DNA from: a virus
Length of the DNA stretch: 26,230 bases
IMG/VR virus record: IMGVR_UViG_3300010885_026127
Location: 1 to 26,230 of that record
Reading direction: 5' to 3' (one strand)
This document shows positions 7,299 to 17,880 of the stretch, piece by piece. The notes below the pieces were generated by a model. That model saw only the letters and a list, made by a program, of their open reading frames with translations. It searched no databases and was not told the origin of the DNA. Position 1 is the first letter of the stretch. Every line of letters starts with the position of its first letter. The translations under genes were made by a program, and so were the position numbers.

Positions 7299-7615
7299 AT
7301 TCTAAAACTTTCGCCACAACCACAACGGTCACGTTCATTGGGATTGCGAAATTCAAAACCCTCATTAAGACCTTGACGAACATAATCAACTGTTATGCCT
7401 TGCAAATACGCATATGATTTGGGATCTACAAATACTTTGCAGTTGGAGCAGTCAAAGCATTGATCCTCTACTTGCGGTTGGTCAACATATTCTAACACAT
7501 AAGCAAGTCCAGAGCAACCAGTTGTTCTTACACCAATTCTAATGCCCTCACCGTGACCACGACGAGTTATAGTTTGTTGTATCTTTCGTGCCGCTGCCTC
7601 AGTTAACAAGATCAT
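7295..7615 (-). CDS. iscA: A-type Fe-S carrier protein IscA (HesB/SufA/ErpA family)
   Basis: This protein carries Fe-S clusters from the scaffold to target enzymes in the cytoplasm. From the ATG at 7613-7615 it has 106 residues, the usual family length, with the three invariant cysteines: C34 in TTGCSGLAY, and C98 and C100 in the C-terminal CGCGESF (E. coli IscA numbering is 35, 99, 101). Extra cysteines C53, C56 and C59 in the middle are unusual. GGAG sits 6 bases upstream of this ATG; a GTG four codons earlier is possible but less family-like. It overlaps the upstream radical SAM gene by 17 bases and the next gene by 4. Identification is firm. Whether it best matches IscA, SufA or ErpA is open. 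Confidence 0.95.
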   Translation of the reverse strand: MILLTEAAARKIQQTITRRGHGEGIRIGVRTTGCSGLAYVLEYVDQPQVEDQCFDCSNCKVFVDPKSYAYLQGITVDYVRQGLNEGFEFRNPNERDRCGCGESFRI

Positions 7616-8585
7616 TTTTTGCTCCACACACTTGTTGGCACACAGCCGGTTGGGTTTTCTCTTCAGCCCAGGATTGTTGTAGGTCTTGGAACCAAGTCCT
7701 GCTTAGATCAATGCTAGTAATGTCACCTAACAATGTTTCCAATTCTTTATCTTGATACAATGGGCCTGTTCGTGGTCTAGTTGGTTTAGACAAGTCAATC
7801 CAACAACAAGGAGTAACAGTACCAGTTGCACCGATGTATATTGATTTTTCTTGACGGGCTTGGCAAACAATTTTGGCATTGTTGCCTTTGTTGTATTTTA
7901 AGTTATACAATTTTATTTTATCAACATCCACTTGATCAGGTAGACCCATTGGATTTTGTGTGCCAATGGCTGCAATTTTGGTTCCGCTACGATTGTAAAT
8001 AGGGCCGTCGGCTCTTGTGTTTAAGCGGCGACGAAATTGAACAAACCCTAATTCTTTAGCAAGAATTTTTGCCTCTGCAACCTGGTGTTTGTTGTGTGGA
8101 AATTCTGTGTACATCCATACTGCTTGTCCTCCAGCCTGGATAAAATGTGCGGCATTGTTGAGTATGGTTTGATAATCAGTGTCTTGTCGATAAATGCCAT
8201 GAGTATCTGCCAACCCATCTATACAAAAATCAACAGTTATCCCTAATGCACCTAGATCCTGCCAGAATTTTTTATTTCTGGCAGATCCATTTGTACTAGC
8301 ATTAATTTTAATTTGTGAATTGCACTTGAGTATATAAGAAATAATATTCACGCTGTGATGATTCATTATGAAATCACCATGATTGCCGTTGATGTAGATT
8401 ATTTCTATATTCTGCAATAACTCAGGTGTCACAAGTTTTTGAAAATCTCTAAGAGAAAGATCAACTTCTTCGTAACCGTTGTTGTAGGGATACCCATAAT
8501 AGTTTCTAGGGCATCGTGGGCACCTAGCGTTACAGCGAGAACTCAACTCTAAGTGTATGTGTCTAACATCATTGAATGTCAGCAT
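7599..8585 (-). CDS. Radical SAM enzyme with C-terminal SPASM-like cysteines (RS-2)
   Basis: This 328-residue enzyme should bind a [4Fe-4S] cluster and S-adenosylmethionine to make a 5'-deoxyadenosyl radical. The CX3CX2C motif is C18, C22, C25 (SSRCNARCPRCPR). The usual GGEP stretch is replaced by INGNHGDF (65-72), and DFCIDGLADTHGIYR (119-133) and TEFPHNKHQ (160-168) follow. C-terminal cysteines C241, C260/C261, C316 and C320 suggest an auxiliary cluster of twitch/SPASM type. The substrate is unknown. The variant resembles radical SAM proteins I recall from other marine and freshwater phages, also without known function. It lies between iscU (17-base overlap) and iscA (17-base overlap), which indicates tight co-expression with the Fe-S supply genes. 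Confidence 0.9.
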   Translation of the reverse strand: MLTFNDVRHIHLELSSRCNARCPRCPRNYYGYPYNNGYEEVDLSLRDFQKLVTPELLQNIEIIYINGNHGDFIMNHHSVNIISYILKCNSQIKINASTNGSARNKKFWQDLGALGITVDFCIDGLADTHGIYRQDTDYQTILNNAAHFIQAGGQAVWMYTEFPHNKHQVAEAKILAKELGFVQFRRRLNTRADGPIYNRSGTKIAAIGTQNPMGLPDQVDVDKIKLYNLKYNKGNNAKIVCQARQEKSIYIGATGTVTPCCWIDLSKPTRPRTGPLYQDKELETLLGDITSIDLSRTWFQDLQQSWAEEKTQPAVCQQVCGAKNDLVN

Positions 8586-8985: not shown

Positions 8986-9882
8986 TTATTCGTTAACGTC
9001 TGTACTTATCTTCCAGGATTTTTTTCTGTTTGAGAATTCAATAGGACCATAGGTGTACGATTCAGGACAAAATTTACACTGTGGGACTACATTGTCAATA
9101 TTGGATAAAAACTCTGTGCCACGAGAATCAAACTCATCAACACCTAGTCCTTGGTAACCATGTAAAATTTCTCTATCTTGATCTGTAATATCAAATTGAT
9201 GCTGGTCATCAAATTCTGGCATTAATGCAGTTGGTCCACACTTGTAAATTTTACCACGAATCCAGTGATAGTTTTTAAAACGTGCAAATGAACAATTATC
9301 ATGTGCCTTAACTGGATCGCTGTTGTACAATCCAAATCTTCCATTGGGCTGTTCTATAATATTGCTTTGCACAAACTTGTCGGTGATCCAACAATGCACA
9401 TATTTTCCATTGGCATCATAAAACTGATAGTCTGATCCAACAGGATGATTGGGATTTTGTGTTTCTCTTATGGGGTGAACCATGTAATTACGTATGCGTT
9501 GGAAAATTTCTTCCCGATCTTCTTGACTGTGTATGCTGATGCCTATCCAATTGCTTTCGTCCATGACATCATATAGCCCACGCACACGATCAATTCTTGT
9601 ACCGTTGCTTTGTATTTGTACCCCCGATAATCGTGGCCAGAATCGACGCAGGCCTGACACCCATTGTGTGATGGTAGGATTTAGTAAAGGTTCACCACCA
9701 AGTATAACCAAGTGTCGAATTTCAATTTTTTCTGACCACTTTTTAAGATCTGCTTCCCAATCATTCCAGTCTTGCCATCCTTTGAAGTGATAGTTGTTGT
9801 AACGATTACAGCCACCGCACGTTAGATTGCAAACATTAGTAACATAAAACTCAAGTCGATCTATTAGAATTCGTTTTGGCAT
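8986..9882 (-). CDS. Radical SAM enzyme with C-terminal auxiliary-cluster cysteines (RS-1)
   Basis: From ATG 9880-9882 the protein has 298 residues. The CX3CX2C motif is C18, C22, C25 (TNVCNLTCGGC), at the same positions as in the second radical SAM gene. It keeps a canonical LGGEPLLNP (61-69) and has late cysteine pairs (DNCSFA, then YKCGPTALM, and PQCKFCPE) that could hold an auxiliary Fe-S cluster. The open frame extends 26 codons further upstream, but that would overlap the end of the secreted-protein gene by 70 bases. The radical SAM fold begins cleanly at the shorter start, 8 bases after that gene's stop. Peptide or sugar modification are possible roles; the substrate is not determined by sequence. 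Confidence 0.9.
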   Translation of the reverse strand: MPKRILIDRLEFYVTNVCNLTCGGCNRYNNYHFKGWQDWNDWEADLKKWSEKIEIRHLVILGGEPLLNPTITQWVSGLRRFWPRLSGVQIQSNGTRIDRVRGLYDVMDESNWIGISIHSQEDREEIFQRIRNYMVHPIRETQNPNHPVGSDYQFYDANGKYVHCWITDKFVQSNIIEQPNGRFGLYNSDPVKAHDNCSFARFKNYHWIRGKIYKCGPTALMPEFDDQHQFDITDQDREILHGYQGLGVDEFDSRGTEFLSNIDNVVPQCKFCPESYTYGPIEFSNRKKSWKISTDVNE

Positions 9883-9890
9883 TGATGTCT

Positions 9891-10217
9891 TTATTGAGCG
9901 CAGGTTCTTTCGCGATAGATTTTGCCATCGGAGGTATGGATCTCTTTCCAGGGTGTGCAATTTTCTTGTTGAACAATCACAGGCTGTTGTTGAACAATCA
10001 CAGTTTCCGTTTGTGTTGTCAAGGGTCGATTGGCAATGACAGCGCCAACTACCCCACCAATGATTAGGGGTGCAACCCAGCCACCCCCACCATAGTACAT
10101 TGGATGACCGTGATGTCTATTTTGATATGGTCCAAGATGTGAGCCATGGTAACCATGTGGGCCTGCTACCACAGCACTGGATACTGTGAGCAATAATACT
10201 GCTAGAAACTTTTTCAT
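9891..10217 (-). CDS. Small secreted Gly/His-rich protein with signal peptide
   Basis: The protein has 108 residues. Residues 1-18 (MKKFLAVLLLTVSSAVVA) form a classic Sec signal peptide with cleavage expected after VVA. The mature part is rich in Gly, His and Tyr (HHGHPMYYGGGG), followed by a hydrophobic glycine-zipper-like stretch (APLIIGGVVGAVIA, about 49-62) and a Val/Gln segment. The C-terminal domain has two cysteines (ENCTPWKEI ... YRERTC) that probably form a disulfide. It looks like a host-derived envelope or periplasmic protein. It is the first gene after a strong sigma70-like promoter and has a strong ribosome site (AAGGAG at 10225-10230). Metal binding by the His-rich part, or being a substrate of the following radical SAM enzyme, are only ideas. 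Confidence 0.82.
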   Translation of the reverse strand: MKKFLAVLLLTVSSAVVAGPHGYHGSHLGPYQNRHHGHPMYYGGGGWVAPLIIGGVVGAVIANRPLTTQTETVIVQQQPVIVQQENCTPWKEIHTSDGKIYRERTCAQ

Positions 10218-12210: not shown

Positions 12211-12639
12211 TTATTTATGGGCAATTGTTTCAAATCGAATATTGACTCCGGGAATCAGCATGCCATCTTGATCAGGATCTTCATCTAGTCCTGTCAACAT
12301 GGGAACACCGTTGCAGTCCTGAGCCAGTAGTCCTACTGGATCTCCACTGGATTCAATTGATGCGGGCTGTTCTACGGAAAACTCAAATGTCCACCAGGCT
12401 TGATCTGCTGTGTTAATTTTGCGAGATACAGTTATGTTTTCTGGCAGTGTTCTCAACGAAATCACCTGATTGATTGTTTCCCAGTTGCGTTGTTGATTGC
12501 GGGCACGATTCCAGGCATGGGTGTCATTTATTAATTTGGTCGTGGCATCATGAAAAGGCAGTCGACTGCGGCTGAAGTTGTTGCGAACTTCGGTCACAGT
12601 GATGTCAAATCTTGTGGTGCACTGAACCTGTAGTGTCAT
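12211..12639 (-). CDS. Phage protein of unknown function, possibly virion-associated (142 aa)
   Basis: No named family is recognised. The 142-residue protein starts with a beta-type segment (MTLQVQCTTRFDITVTEVR), followed by a Trp/Asn/Arg-rich helix (AWNRARNQQRNWETINQVIS, about 42-61) and a beta-rich acidic C-terminal half with DEDPDQDG (about 120-127), which could bind a cation. There is no signal peptide or membrane segment. The start overlaps the stop of the 2OG oxygenase gene as ATGA. The run of tightly overlapping genes from 13286 to 10281 suggests one late unit. Confidence 0.72.
   Translation of the reverse strand: MTLQVQCTTRFDITVTEVRNNFSRSRLPFHDATTKLINDTHAWNRARNQQRNWETINQVISLRTLPENITVSRKINTADQAWWTFEFSVEQPASIESSGDPVGLLAQDCNGVPMLTGLDEDPDQDGMLIPGVNIRFETIAHK
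12212..12219 (-). promoter_or_regulatory. T4-like late promoter motif (CATAAATA) before the membrane-protein gene
   Basis: CATAAATA reads on the minus strand only 5 bases before the ATG at 12206 and overlaps the stop codon of the upstream gene. If active like a T4 late promoter, the RNA would begin at or next to the start codon. It may be chance in AT-rich DNA. Confidence 0.3.
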
Positions 12640-13286
12640 GTGGTTAACGTAACTGTTGACATGTTGGCCAATGATACTTTGCTGTTGACTGAAATAACAT
12701 AGCGTTCTTTTTCACCACGATATGTTAGCGCATTGTGTTGTATAAAACTGGGAAAAACTATCAACATGCCTTCTTGAGCAGTGATGTCAATACTGGTGTT
12801 TCGAGAAGTCCAGGCAGTTCCTGCGTCGATGTACATGTTGTTGTAAGGGCAAAAAAATCTATTGAGACCGTTCTTGCTGGCAGCATCCATGTCACCGGTG
12901 TCTAGGTAATAGATTGCAGACCATGAACTACCTGGATGAGTGTGCATGTCGTGGTAACCACCGTCTCTGGTGATGTGACACCAGGATTCGTGTATCTCAA
13001 TGTTGATGTTGGCACCTGCTGGCCAATATTCTCTATTGGCATTGGCAGCAGATTTAAACAAACAGTCTTTGATCCAGTGGCTCAGTGCTACTACTGCTGG
13101 ATCAGGAACAGTGACAAAATCAAATCCGCTTTCATACAGTCCTCGTTTGGCACTGGGTGCTACATTGCTTTGACTGTTTTTGCTTTCAAGATCTTGACAA
13201 ACTTGTTTGAGTTGTTGTTTGTACTTTTGGTGTTGGGCCCACTGGAAGTCGTACATGATCACTGGCCATACATTGATTGGTTGCAT
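12636..13286 (-). CDS. 2-oxoglutarate/Fe(II)-dependent oxygenase (TIGR02466 / PF13759-like)
   Basis: This is a probable non-haem iron oxygenase using 2-oxoglutarate and O2; the substrate is unknown. The 216-residue protein has a central double-stranded beta-helix signature: GGYHDMHTHPGSSWSAIYYL (109-128) with candidate iron ligands at H112/D113, H115 and H117, then VFPSFIQHNALTYRG with H184, and KERYVISVN with R195 in place to bind 2-oxoglutarate. This pattern is typical of the small family found in many T4-like marine phages. The start is ATG 13284-13286, preceded by TTAAATA (13295-13301) and, further up, the terminator of the 155-aa gene, so it probably starts a new transcript. Confidence 0.85.
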   Translation of the reverse strand: MQPINVWPVIMYDFQWAQHQKYKQQLKQVCQDLESKNSQSNVAPSAKRGLYESGFDFVTVPDPAVVALSHWIKDCLFKSAANANREYWPAGANINIEIHESWCHITRDGGYHDMHTHPGSSWSAIYYLDTGDMDAASKNGLNRFFCPYNNMYIDAGTAWTSRNTSIDITAQEGMLIVFPSFIQHNALTYRGEKERYVISVNSKVSLANMSTVTLTT

Positions 13287-16084: not shown

Positions 16085-16170
16085 CAATCAGGGTTGGTCA
16101 TCTATATCAAACGATTTTGTGTTGTGAGTTTATTTTTAACTTGAGTTTTTAAAGAATATATAACACTATA

Positions 16171-16809
16171 ATGAAAACTACTATTTTTACTTCTGGCAGC
16201 ACAAGGAAACCAAAACAGGTAACACACAATGATATGTTGACTCATATCAAACGATCAGTTGACGAAATTGGGCTCAAAAGTGATGACATAGTATTAGATG
16301 TGTTTCCTTCAAATGTTATTGCTCATTATACGGTAACTGCACAACCTGCTATCCATGCCGGTGCTCATTTGATAGCCAGTTCTTTTGATCCTTATCAATA
16401 CATCAGATTATTTAATGAGTTTAAACCCACATACATATCTCTCATTCCACGACACATTGAAGTACTGAACAAAGTCAAAGGATGGGACGAGCTTGACATG
16501 AGTTCTGTAAGATACATGGTCACTGGCAGTCAGACTGTGACTCAAGAGATAATCAATCAATTGAGAGCCAAAGGCGTACAAACAGTGGCCAACTGGTATG
16601 GTATGACTGAAATGCCACCGCCGGTATTTGTTGGATATAATTCAGAATCATTTGATTTTACTCCCAAACCAGGATATGTTGTTGAGTTTGATAATGAGGG
16701 CGAGTGTATTATTAATGGAGTACGCACTGGTGATATTTTTGATCTTGATACCAAAAAGTTTGTTTGTAGGAAATCTAGCCTAGTGAGTAACACCTGGAAA
16801 ACTCAATAG
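16171..16809 (+). CDS. Miniature adenylate-forming (ANL/AMP-binding) enzyme core
   Basis: The ANL superfamily activates carboxylic acids as acyl-AMP. This 212-residue protein starts almost at the ATP-binding A3 motif (FTSGSTRKPKQ, 6-16; the usual second Gly is Arg) and keeps FKPTYISLIPRH (85-96), VTGSQTV (117-123), the A5 motif NWYGMTE (141-147) and A7 TGD (186-188). It stops at about the A8 hinge (FVCRK, 197-201). Thus the first ~150 residues and the whole C-terminal lid with the A10 lysine are missing. The reading frame is clean, so it is not an obvious pseudogene. It is one of only two plus-strand genes, convergent with the glycosyltransferase-like gene 3 bases away. Activity, substrate and partner are unknown; a non-catalytic acyl/adenylate binder is possible. 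Confidence 0.78.
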   Translation: MKTTIFTSGSTRKPKQVTHNDMLTHIKRSVDEIGLKSDDIVLDVFPSNVIAHYTVTAQPAIHAGAHLIASSFDPYQYIRLFNEFKPTYISLIPRHIEVLNKVKGWDELDMSSVRYMVTGSQTVTQEIINQLRAKGVQTVANWYGMTEMPPPVFVGYNSESFDFTPKPGYVVEFDNEGECIINGVRTGDIFDLDTKKFVCRKSSLVSNTWKTQ

Positions 16810-16812
16810 AGA

Positions 16813-17880
16813 CTAAAGCCATGTGTTTACCTGCCATATTTTTTTGATATATGGTATCCAGATCTGTTTGAGAATATCAGGAAACTTTTCAAGTTCATCA
16901 AGACAATATCTTTGTAAACGACCCGAAAGTAATAATTCTCTATTTTGTAACAATCTATCAGCGTGTTGATTTCTTAAATTTCTCATATTGTTAAGATTTT
17001 GAAGAAGGTGCAGATTGTCGGCTATAGCATGATAGCATCTTTCAATTAGCGTGTTGTGCCATTGGTAAGAATGATTTATTACATCATCAAATGTGTCAAA
17101 CCCAATGTTTTTCCAGGCATGTGCTTGACCTTTGCCACCTATCCAAATTGGAAAAGTCAGAGCCAACACAGAATAATGCGTTTTTTCAGTAAACACAGCA
17201 CCATATTGAGAATCTACAGATTCGCCGATTACACTTACCCCACTGCAAAAAAATACATTGTCCACTCCCGAGTTCCACACTTGAGCCATAGATCCTGGTG
17301 CATTAATAAAGTTTTGTTTTTTTTCACCTGATCTTTTATTGTTTGCACCAATTACGTCAACCCATTGAGGATTTAACTTTATGGGTGATGTTAAAAATCT
17401 TCGAAGTAAATCATAATCCTGTTGCTGTGATTCCGTTAACGAATTAAATTCATTTAAAATATCTGAAATATCTCTAATGTAGCCTGCACCGCTCCAGGTG
17501 TATCTAGCATTCTCTACTAATTGAAACCATTCTACTAGTTTTAATAAAATAAATCGGTTTAGTGTTGGCTTGTTGATAATAAAATTAAAACAATAATCAG
17601 TTTTTAGATCTTCTAGGTTTGGAATTATCAATGAAGGTAACATATCCGTCAGCAGGTTAGAAGTTGCCATAGGCAAACAATAGATTTTTAATTCTGATGA
17701 CAGATGTGATGTTAGAAGATCACTAACAATATAACCAGGGTGACCCCTGGTGTCTAACACATGAGTCAACTCTTTATCTAAAAAATTATCTGAAATATAC
17801 AAAATATCAGTTGAGTCAATGGTGCGGACTTGTTCAACAGGAGTTGCTAAACCATTAGAATTCAATACAATCATACCCAT
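16813..17880 (-). CDS. Glycosyltransferase-like protein, diverged GT10-like motif (paralogue C)
   Basis: The 355-residue protein shares with the genes at 5545 and 22781 a C-terminal series: a Glu-Ser segment (VIGESV), VFTEKT (TEKT at 231-234), GFDTF (260-264) and NHSYQ (269-273, in place of DESYD). It is the most diverged of the three and has lost the acidic DE pair, so its activity is less certain. The N-terminal half has CFNFIINKPTLNRF (97-110) and WFQLVENARYTWSG, as in phage proteins of this type. It follows the helicase gene after 5 bases; ATG 17878-17880 has AGGG upstream, and a second ATG is two codons in. It is AT-rich compared with the helicase. Confidence 0.55.
   Translation of the reverse strand: MGMIVLNSNGLATPVEQVRTIDSTDILYISDNFLDKELTHVLDTRGHPGYIVSDLLTSHLSSELKIYCLPMATSNLLTDMLPSLIIPNLEDLKTDYCFNFIINKPTLNRFILLKLVEWFQLVENARYTWSGAGYIRDISDILNEFNSLTESQQQDYDLLRRFLTSPIKLNPQWVDVIGANNKRSGEKKQNFINAPGSMAQVWNSGVDNVFFCSGVSVIGESVDSQYGAVFTEKTHYSVLALTFPIWIGGKGQAHAWKNIGFDTFDDVINHSYQWHNTLIERCYHAIADNLHLLQNLNNMRNLRNQHADRLLQNRELLLSGRLQRYCLDELEKFPDILKQIWIPYIKKIWQVNTWL

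Follow-up and report, generated by a model that had tools for sequence, protein, structure and literature searches.

A viral DNA stretch of 26,230 nucleotides (hereafter the window) encodes a 212-residue protein, here called mini-A, which is a compact adenylate-forming (ANL) core under purifying selection, with fixed nucleotide-site residues and no detectable first lobe (lobe 1) or C-terminal lid, and whose family is paired with a GNAT-fold protein. ANL enzymes work with two domains, the lid changing its position from one half-reaction to the next, and the A10 lysine of the lid is important for adenylation. The same cut in every copy, together with a single GNAT-fold protein in each long contig examined, suggests a compact two-protein machine that attaches an acid to an amine.

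The mini-A gene and its motifs

The mini-A gene and its recognizable motifs are located in the window as follows.

16150–16152, + strand: in-frame stop TAA, six codons 5′ of the mini-A ATG
16171–16809, + strand: mini-A gene, ATG to TAG, 212 residues, minimal ANL protein with A3–A8 only
16189–16215, + strand: A3 P-loop, T7–K15 (TSGSTRKPK); T7, S8, G9, T11, P14 and K15 invariant
16285–16347, + strand: A4-like stretch, D39–P59 (DIVLDVFPSNVIAHYTVTAQP); D39, P46, N48, A51 and P59 invariant; aligns with the ANL acyl-site region
16591–16623, + strand: A5 NWYGMTE (141–147) followed by a family-specific xPP, together 141–151; N141, W142, Y143, G144, T146, E147, P150 and P151 invariant
16699–16734, + strand: A6 and, almost without a gap, A7 (GECIINGVRTGD, 177–188); T186 and D188 invariant
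16768–16800, + strand: A8 arginine R200 and C-terminal TWK (208–210); R200, T208, W209 and K210 invariant

The reading frame contains no internal stop, as the initial annotation had described, and the TAA at 16150–16152 makes an N-terminal extension or an in-frame lobe 1 impossible. The Pfam AMP-binding profile (PF00501) matched mini-A with 70.2 bits (E = 1.9e-19; cut-off 29.9), residues 5–154 corresponding to profile positions 168–330 of 384. The NCBIfam matches were acyl-CoA ligase models, all far under their full-length cut-offs (best 72.7 bits versus 476 for NF004837). The late start of the PF00501 match, the upstream TAA and the TWK terminus bear out the earlier description of an adenylate-forming core devoid of the first lobe and the lid.

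Residue invariance was scored over 61 distinct mini-A sequences. The A3, A5 and A7 motifs and the A8 arginine that had been read from the window alone are all present with their key positions invariant among these relatives; little or no variation is seen at the nucleotide-site motif residues of the lobe, and the window copy has lost none of the invariant residues. Specifically, A7 is represented by TGD (residues 186–188), with D188 at the position of the ribose-binding aspartate, and D39–P59 is a putative acyl-pocket stretch, judging from its alignment. The initial annotation placed the end of the protein at the A8 hinge; R200 is indeed there, but the chain runs slightly past it and stops two residues beyond TWK, without a lid. 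The A6-A7 stretch is shortened (GECIING-xx-TGD), and the barrel is thus trimmed as well; the structural alignment, with 202–204 aligned residues over about 250 of the target, puts this internal trimming at about 40–50 residues. A search of the intergenic gap before the window gene for a sigma-70 promoter found none. In one relative (L004:5986–6642), A7 reads NDIFD in place of TGDIFD, changing G187, which is the sole departure at that glycine in an alignment of 25 rows.

Mini-A is a conserved gene family

Scans of IMG/VR for relatives of mini-A gave 43 and then 101 sequences, of which 80 were kept, so that 81 members were analysed with the window copy. They come from many separate metagenomes and belong to uncultured aquatic phages. 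All 81 proteins are 210–225 residues long, begin shortly ahead of the P-loop and terminate in TWK, and an in-frame stop lies within 20 codons upstream in 73 of the 81. The median dN/dS is 0.19 (289 pairs). Mini-A genes form a conserved family, maintained by purifying selection.

The initial annotation had also considered what would undo its reading, namely a length not kept in relatives, as in a decaying gene, or flanks removed by an assembly error. The truncation of both ends, and the isolation of the window copy on the strand opposite to its neighbours, would fit a decaying fragment or an assembly artefact. Against this stand the identical ends and TWK in 81 members, the recurrence of the truncation across many separate metagenomes, the low dN/dS and the frequent upstream stop, which together rule this origin out as a working candidate and leave it extremely improbable.

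Predicted fold of mini-A

We modelled mini-A by AlphaFold2 with the family alignment, which gave a compact fold with a pLDDT of 89.8 and a pTM of 0.86. Foldseek matched the model to hundreds of ANL chains, and VIA overlaid its residues 1–206 on the A3–A8 part of ANL enzymes with Z up to 18.8, including 5ie2 (164–415; Z 18.8), BasE (191–438; Z 18.1), the 4-coumarate:CoA ligase 5bsw (183–440; Z 18.0) and EntE. As indicated by the model, mini-A corresponds to the ANL segment running from the P-loop to the hinge, internally trimmed. We take the retained segment to be the part that holds most ATP and acyl contacts in 4-coumarate:CoA ligase (4CL) and luciferase, and the lost parts are the first lobe and the lid that bears the A10 lysine.

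The closest comparison is with the acyl/aryl-CoA ligases 4CL, feruloyl-CoA synthetase and FadD13, which are the nearest solved sequences to mini-A and share with it the fold, the A3, A4-like, A5, A6, A7 and A8 motifs and their order (Z 17–19 over 198–205 residues). Mini-A differs from these enzymes in having neither lobe 1, about 140–190 residues at the N terminus, nor any of the C-terminal lid, in its shortened A6-A7 stretch, and in its length of 212 versus about 500 residues.

A GNAT-fold protein accompanies mini-A

In most loci the gene after mini-A encodes a protein of about 190 residues, usually with overlapping ends (the commonest overlap is 29 bp), which matched no family in Pfam, PHROGs or NCBIfam. 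Its AlphaFold2 model adopts a GNAT fold (pLDDT 88.2; Foldseek E 8e-7), with a best VIA Z of 13.1 and an r.m.s.d. of 3.3 over 164 residues. The GNAT acetyltransferases PA3270, Ard1/Naa10 and 2r7h resemble the partner in predicted fold (Z 12–13) at only 8–17% identity. The pyrophosphate loop of GNATs has the consensus Q/R-x-x-G-x-G/A. Directly after strand 4, the partner carries Q-L-P-G-Y-[T/A], which resembles this loop; Q-x-x-G is kept in most sequences, and the final consensus position is occupied by T, A or another residue.

A scan seeded with the partner recovered 57 loci, and mini-A is present in every one of them. Additionally, each of the 20 long viral records with mini-A (31–356 kb) contains exactly one GNAT relative, even G004, G012 and G016, in which several kb separate the two genes. 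The pairing is therefore one-to-one in these 20 contigs, although such co-occurrence could partly reflect the shared descent of related phages. The link to the GNAT is the tightest in the cassette, since a halogenase accompanies only 44 of the 57 GNAT loci. A profile search of the window found no homologues of the GNAT, halogenase, 2OG oxygenase or tail-fibre protein of the cassette, and the GNAT partner of the window copy could be encoded beyond the ends of the 26-kb fragment.

The missing lobe and lid

A second gene supplying the missing halves had been raised as a possibility at the outset; within the 20 long records, no such gene was found except for one full-length enzyme. PF00501 exceeded its cut-off in all 20 records, once per record apart from L053/G020, where the additional match is the following gene.

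L053:5648–7054, + strand: full-length phage ANL, 468 residues, sharing its locus with a mini-A

This enzyme has lobe 1 and a lid, unlike mini-A, to which it is 32% identical over A3-A5, and both contain an E-x-PP-V stretch after A5. It was found in one contig only, and it may resemble the ancestor of mini-A. A gene of 309 residues sits between the two. The lid family PF13193 is absent from the 20 long records, a result that is weak alone because the profile also misses the L053 lid, and very divergent lids are possible in mini-A phages for the same reason. When the lid and lobe-1 sequences of L053 were used as queries against the 20 records, L053 itself was the sole match.

Genomic neighbourhood

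Mini-A and the GNAT usually follow a tail-fibre gene (Mtd_N domain), in some loci with a 2OG oxygenase and one further enzyme in between. The extra enzyme has an SGNH-like appearance by eye and no family match. After mini-A and the GNAT, the opposite strand encodes a tryptophan halogenase (PF04820, E = 2.6e-72), together with several 2OG oxygenases that resemble Asp/Asn hydroxylases. In two records, L191 (G001:20700–40000) and L192 (G009:23000–42000), an island of more than 15 kb in similar order lies beside the cassette. It encodes AspH-type 2OG oxygenases, beta-propeller-like proteins, a product resembling UDP-sugar dehydrogenases and numerous radical SAM/SPASM proteins, seven of which Pfam confirmed in L191. 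A MoxR-like ATPase adjoining the cassette is nearest to those of jumbo Pseudomonas phages. Two further candidates were rejected: a carrier protein as the general partner of mini-A, given that acyl carrier protein (PP-binding) domains occur in just 2 of the 20 long records, and a cyanophage origin, given that a psbA-type gene occurs in none of them.

The halogenase beside mini-A/GNAT is a compact tryptophan halogenase of about 370–415 residues in most loci (L036:7143–8303 on the − strand, and equivalents). Its identity to cyanophage halogenases is only about 30%, and freshwater loci carry longer versions of about 509 residues.

In the window, mini-A stands alone on the + strand with its neighbours on the opposite strand, among them the following genes.

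7599–8585, − strand: radical SAM gene with a SPASM domain
8986–9960, − strand: radical SAM gene
12636–13286, − strand: 2OG-Fe(II) oxygenase (PF13759, phrog_81)
16813–17880, − strand: gene of 355 residues, its stop 3 bp from the mini-A stop

The solitary position noted in the initial annotation thus holds for the window but not for the family, which usually travels with one GNAT-fold protein and an island of tailoring enzymes; the window copy is the sole isolated one. The 355-residue neighbour had been called glycosyltransferase-like, a label that found no support in Pfam above its cut-off, PHROGs or NCBIfam.

Proposed function of mini-A and its partner

We tentatively propose, at somewhat less than an even chance, that mini-A is an ANL module of one lobe and no lid, which would bind ATP and a carboxylic acid and make or hold the acyl-adenylate, and that the GNAT-fold partner would carry the acyl group onward to an amine (or hydroxyl) acceptor, in the setting of a phage tailoring-enzyme island that often adjoins a tail-fibre gene. 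We infer these steps, from ATP and acyl binding through acyl-AMP formation and GNAT transfer to the acceptor, by analogy with two precedents. Without its lid, the N-domain of firefly luciferase (NFLuc) still has every known substrate-binding residue as well as residual adenylation and catalysis; its affinity for luciferyl-AMP exceeds that of the whole enzyme, per fitted or mutant values, and its adenylation is far slower than that of the reconstituted enzyme (PMC4757408). Like mini-A, NFLuc is an ANL without the lid; unlike mini-A, it is engineered and retains lobe 1. ClxA/NatL2 form an amide directly from an ANL acyl-adenylate, with the active-site lysine coming from the partner chain, and the sites of ClxA-type ligases are completed by a C-terminal extension exchanged between chains (PMC12519233). 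The amide ligases ClxA, NatL2 and AjiA1 have a lid with an extension, comprise about 400 residues or more and have no GNAT partner (PMC12519233), whereas mini-A has no lid.

The AMP-binding match, the motifs, the overlay on the A3–A8 fold, the uniform extent and the dN/dS value support this hand-over of an acyl group, as do the GNAT fold of the partner with its loop-like motif, the pairing in all 57 loci and 20 long records, the usually overlapping genes, the lack of a second AMP-binding domain outside L053 and the failure to detect lobe-1 or lid relatives in those records. On the other side, the A10 lysine is absent and no replacement for it was found, the slow adenylation of NFLuc was seen in a protein that still has lobe 1, which mini-A does not, and the window lacks GNAT, halogenase and tail-fibre neighbours. 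GNATs, moreover, normally use acyl-CoA rather than acyl-AMP. A bolder form of the proposal, in which the pair would be phage-specific and amide-forming, appears unlikely: mini-A would be the smallest natural adenylate-forming enzyme known, and the GNAT would replace the lid, take the acyl-adenylate and acylate an amine directly, on a phage structure or a small molecule.

Mini-A might instead be non-catalytic: as a binder of ATP, AMP or an acyl-adenylate, it would regulate the GNAT or make it more stable, or it would keep an acyl-adenylate of the host sequestered. Such a role would agree with the loss of the lid and its lysine, for which nothing was found as a substitute, with the obligate pairing, and with the behaviour of lid-less luciferase, which holds luciferyl-AMP tightly and reacts very slowly (PMC4757408). 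We regard it as possible but doubtful, as the phosphate-loop, A5, A7 and A8 residues are all fixed, which is more than the binding of ribose or base alone needs, and the acyl-site stretch is conserved too. The kinship to CoA ligases, which are the nearest solved sequences, raises the thought of a stripped acyl-CoA ligase, in which mini-A would make acyl-AMP, CoA would attack it and the GNAT would use the resulting acyl-CoA in the ordinary way. An ANL and a GNAT form a natural activation/transfer pair, and the GNAT carries a motif like the pyrophosphate loop; nevertheless, the lid that rotates to form the site of the thioester half-reaction is missing and acyl carrier protein domains are rare in the long records, which makes this explanation distinctly unlikely.

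Lastly, another chain could provide lobe and lid in trans, whether a host ANL enzyme, a phage protein that escaped recognition or, in a dimer, a second copy of mini-A. The removal of lobe 1 would be expected to expose a surface in need of a partner, and ClxA-type ligases do exchange their C-terminal extension between chains (PMC12519233). Yet no relatives of lobe 1 or the lid were detected in the 20 long records, L053's own aside, a search that divergent lids could escape, and mini-A is predicted to fold well alone; we consider such a composite enzyme quite improbable.

If the acyl hand-over by mini-A and its GNAT is true, a widespread natural ANL protein without lid or first lobe would show how little of the fold suffices, and the pair would constitute a compact module for amide bonds. 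Such a pair would also hint at acylation reactions not yet known, encoded in uncultured aquatic phages alongside genes for tail fibres, halogenases, 2OG oxygenases and radical SAM enzymes.

Distribution and known relatives

Species genomes of bacteria and archaea, 84,980 in all, yielded no relatives of mini-A or the GNAT in scans with conserved peptide patterns, which need a short conserved match and may miss distant relatives. Similarly, no relative of either protein was detected in 50,697 isolate phage records. The literature on lid-less or phage ANL proteins and on phage biosynthetic clusters yielded nothing relevant, and no account of the truncated family or its GNAT partner was found.

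The initial annotation had supposed that such a protein would be new for a phage. This does not hold in that form, for BFVD already contains full-length phage ANLs together with one 214-residue member of the mini-A family. The latter, UniProt A0A6J5L770 from an uncultured Caudovirales phage, is 60% identical to mini-A (TM 0.92) and was named automatically "AMP-dependent synthetase/ligase"; no description of a partner, function or family was found for it. What is new here is the ANL core without lobe 1 and lid as a family, plus its strict GNAT partner, individual members being already in databases. With mini-A as the query, the isolate-phage records gave canonical ANL matches only, at 21–29% identity. 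These matches (H1–H15) include several that look like carry-over from bacterial chromosomes, for example unannotated Staphylococcus, Listeria and Salmonella records of 6–22 kb.
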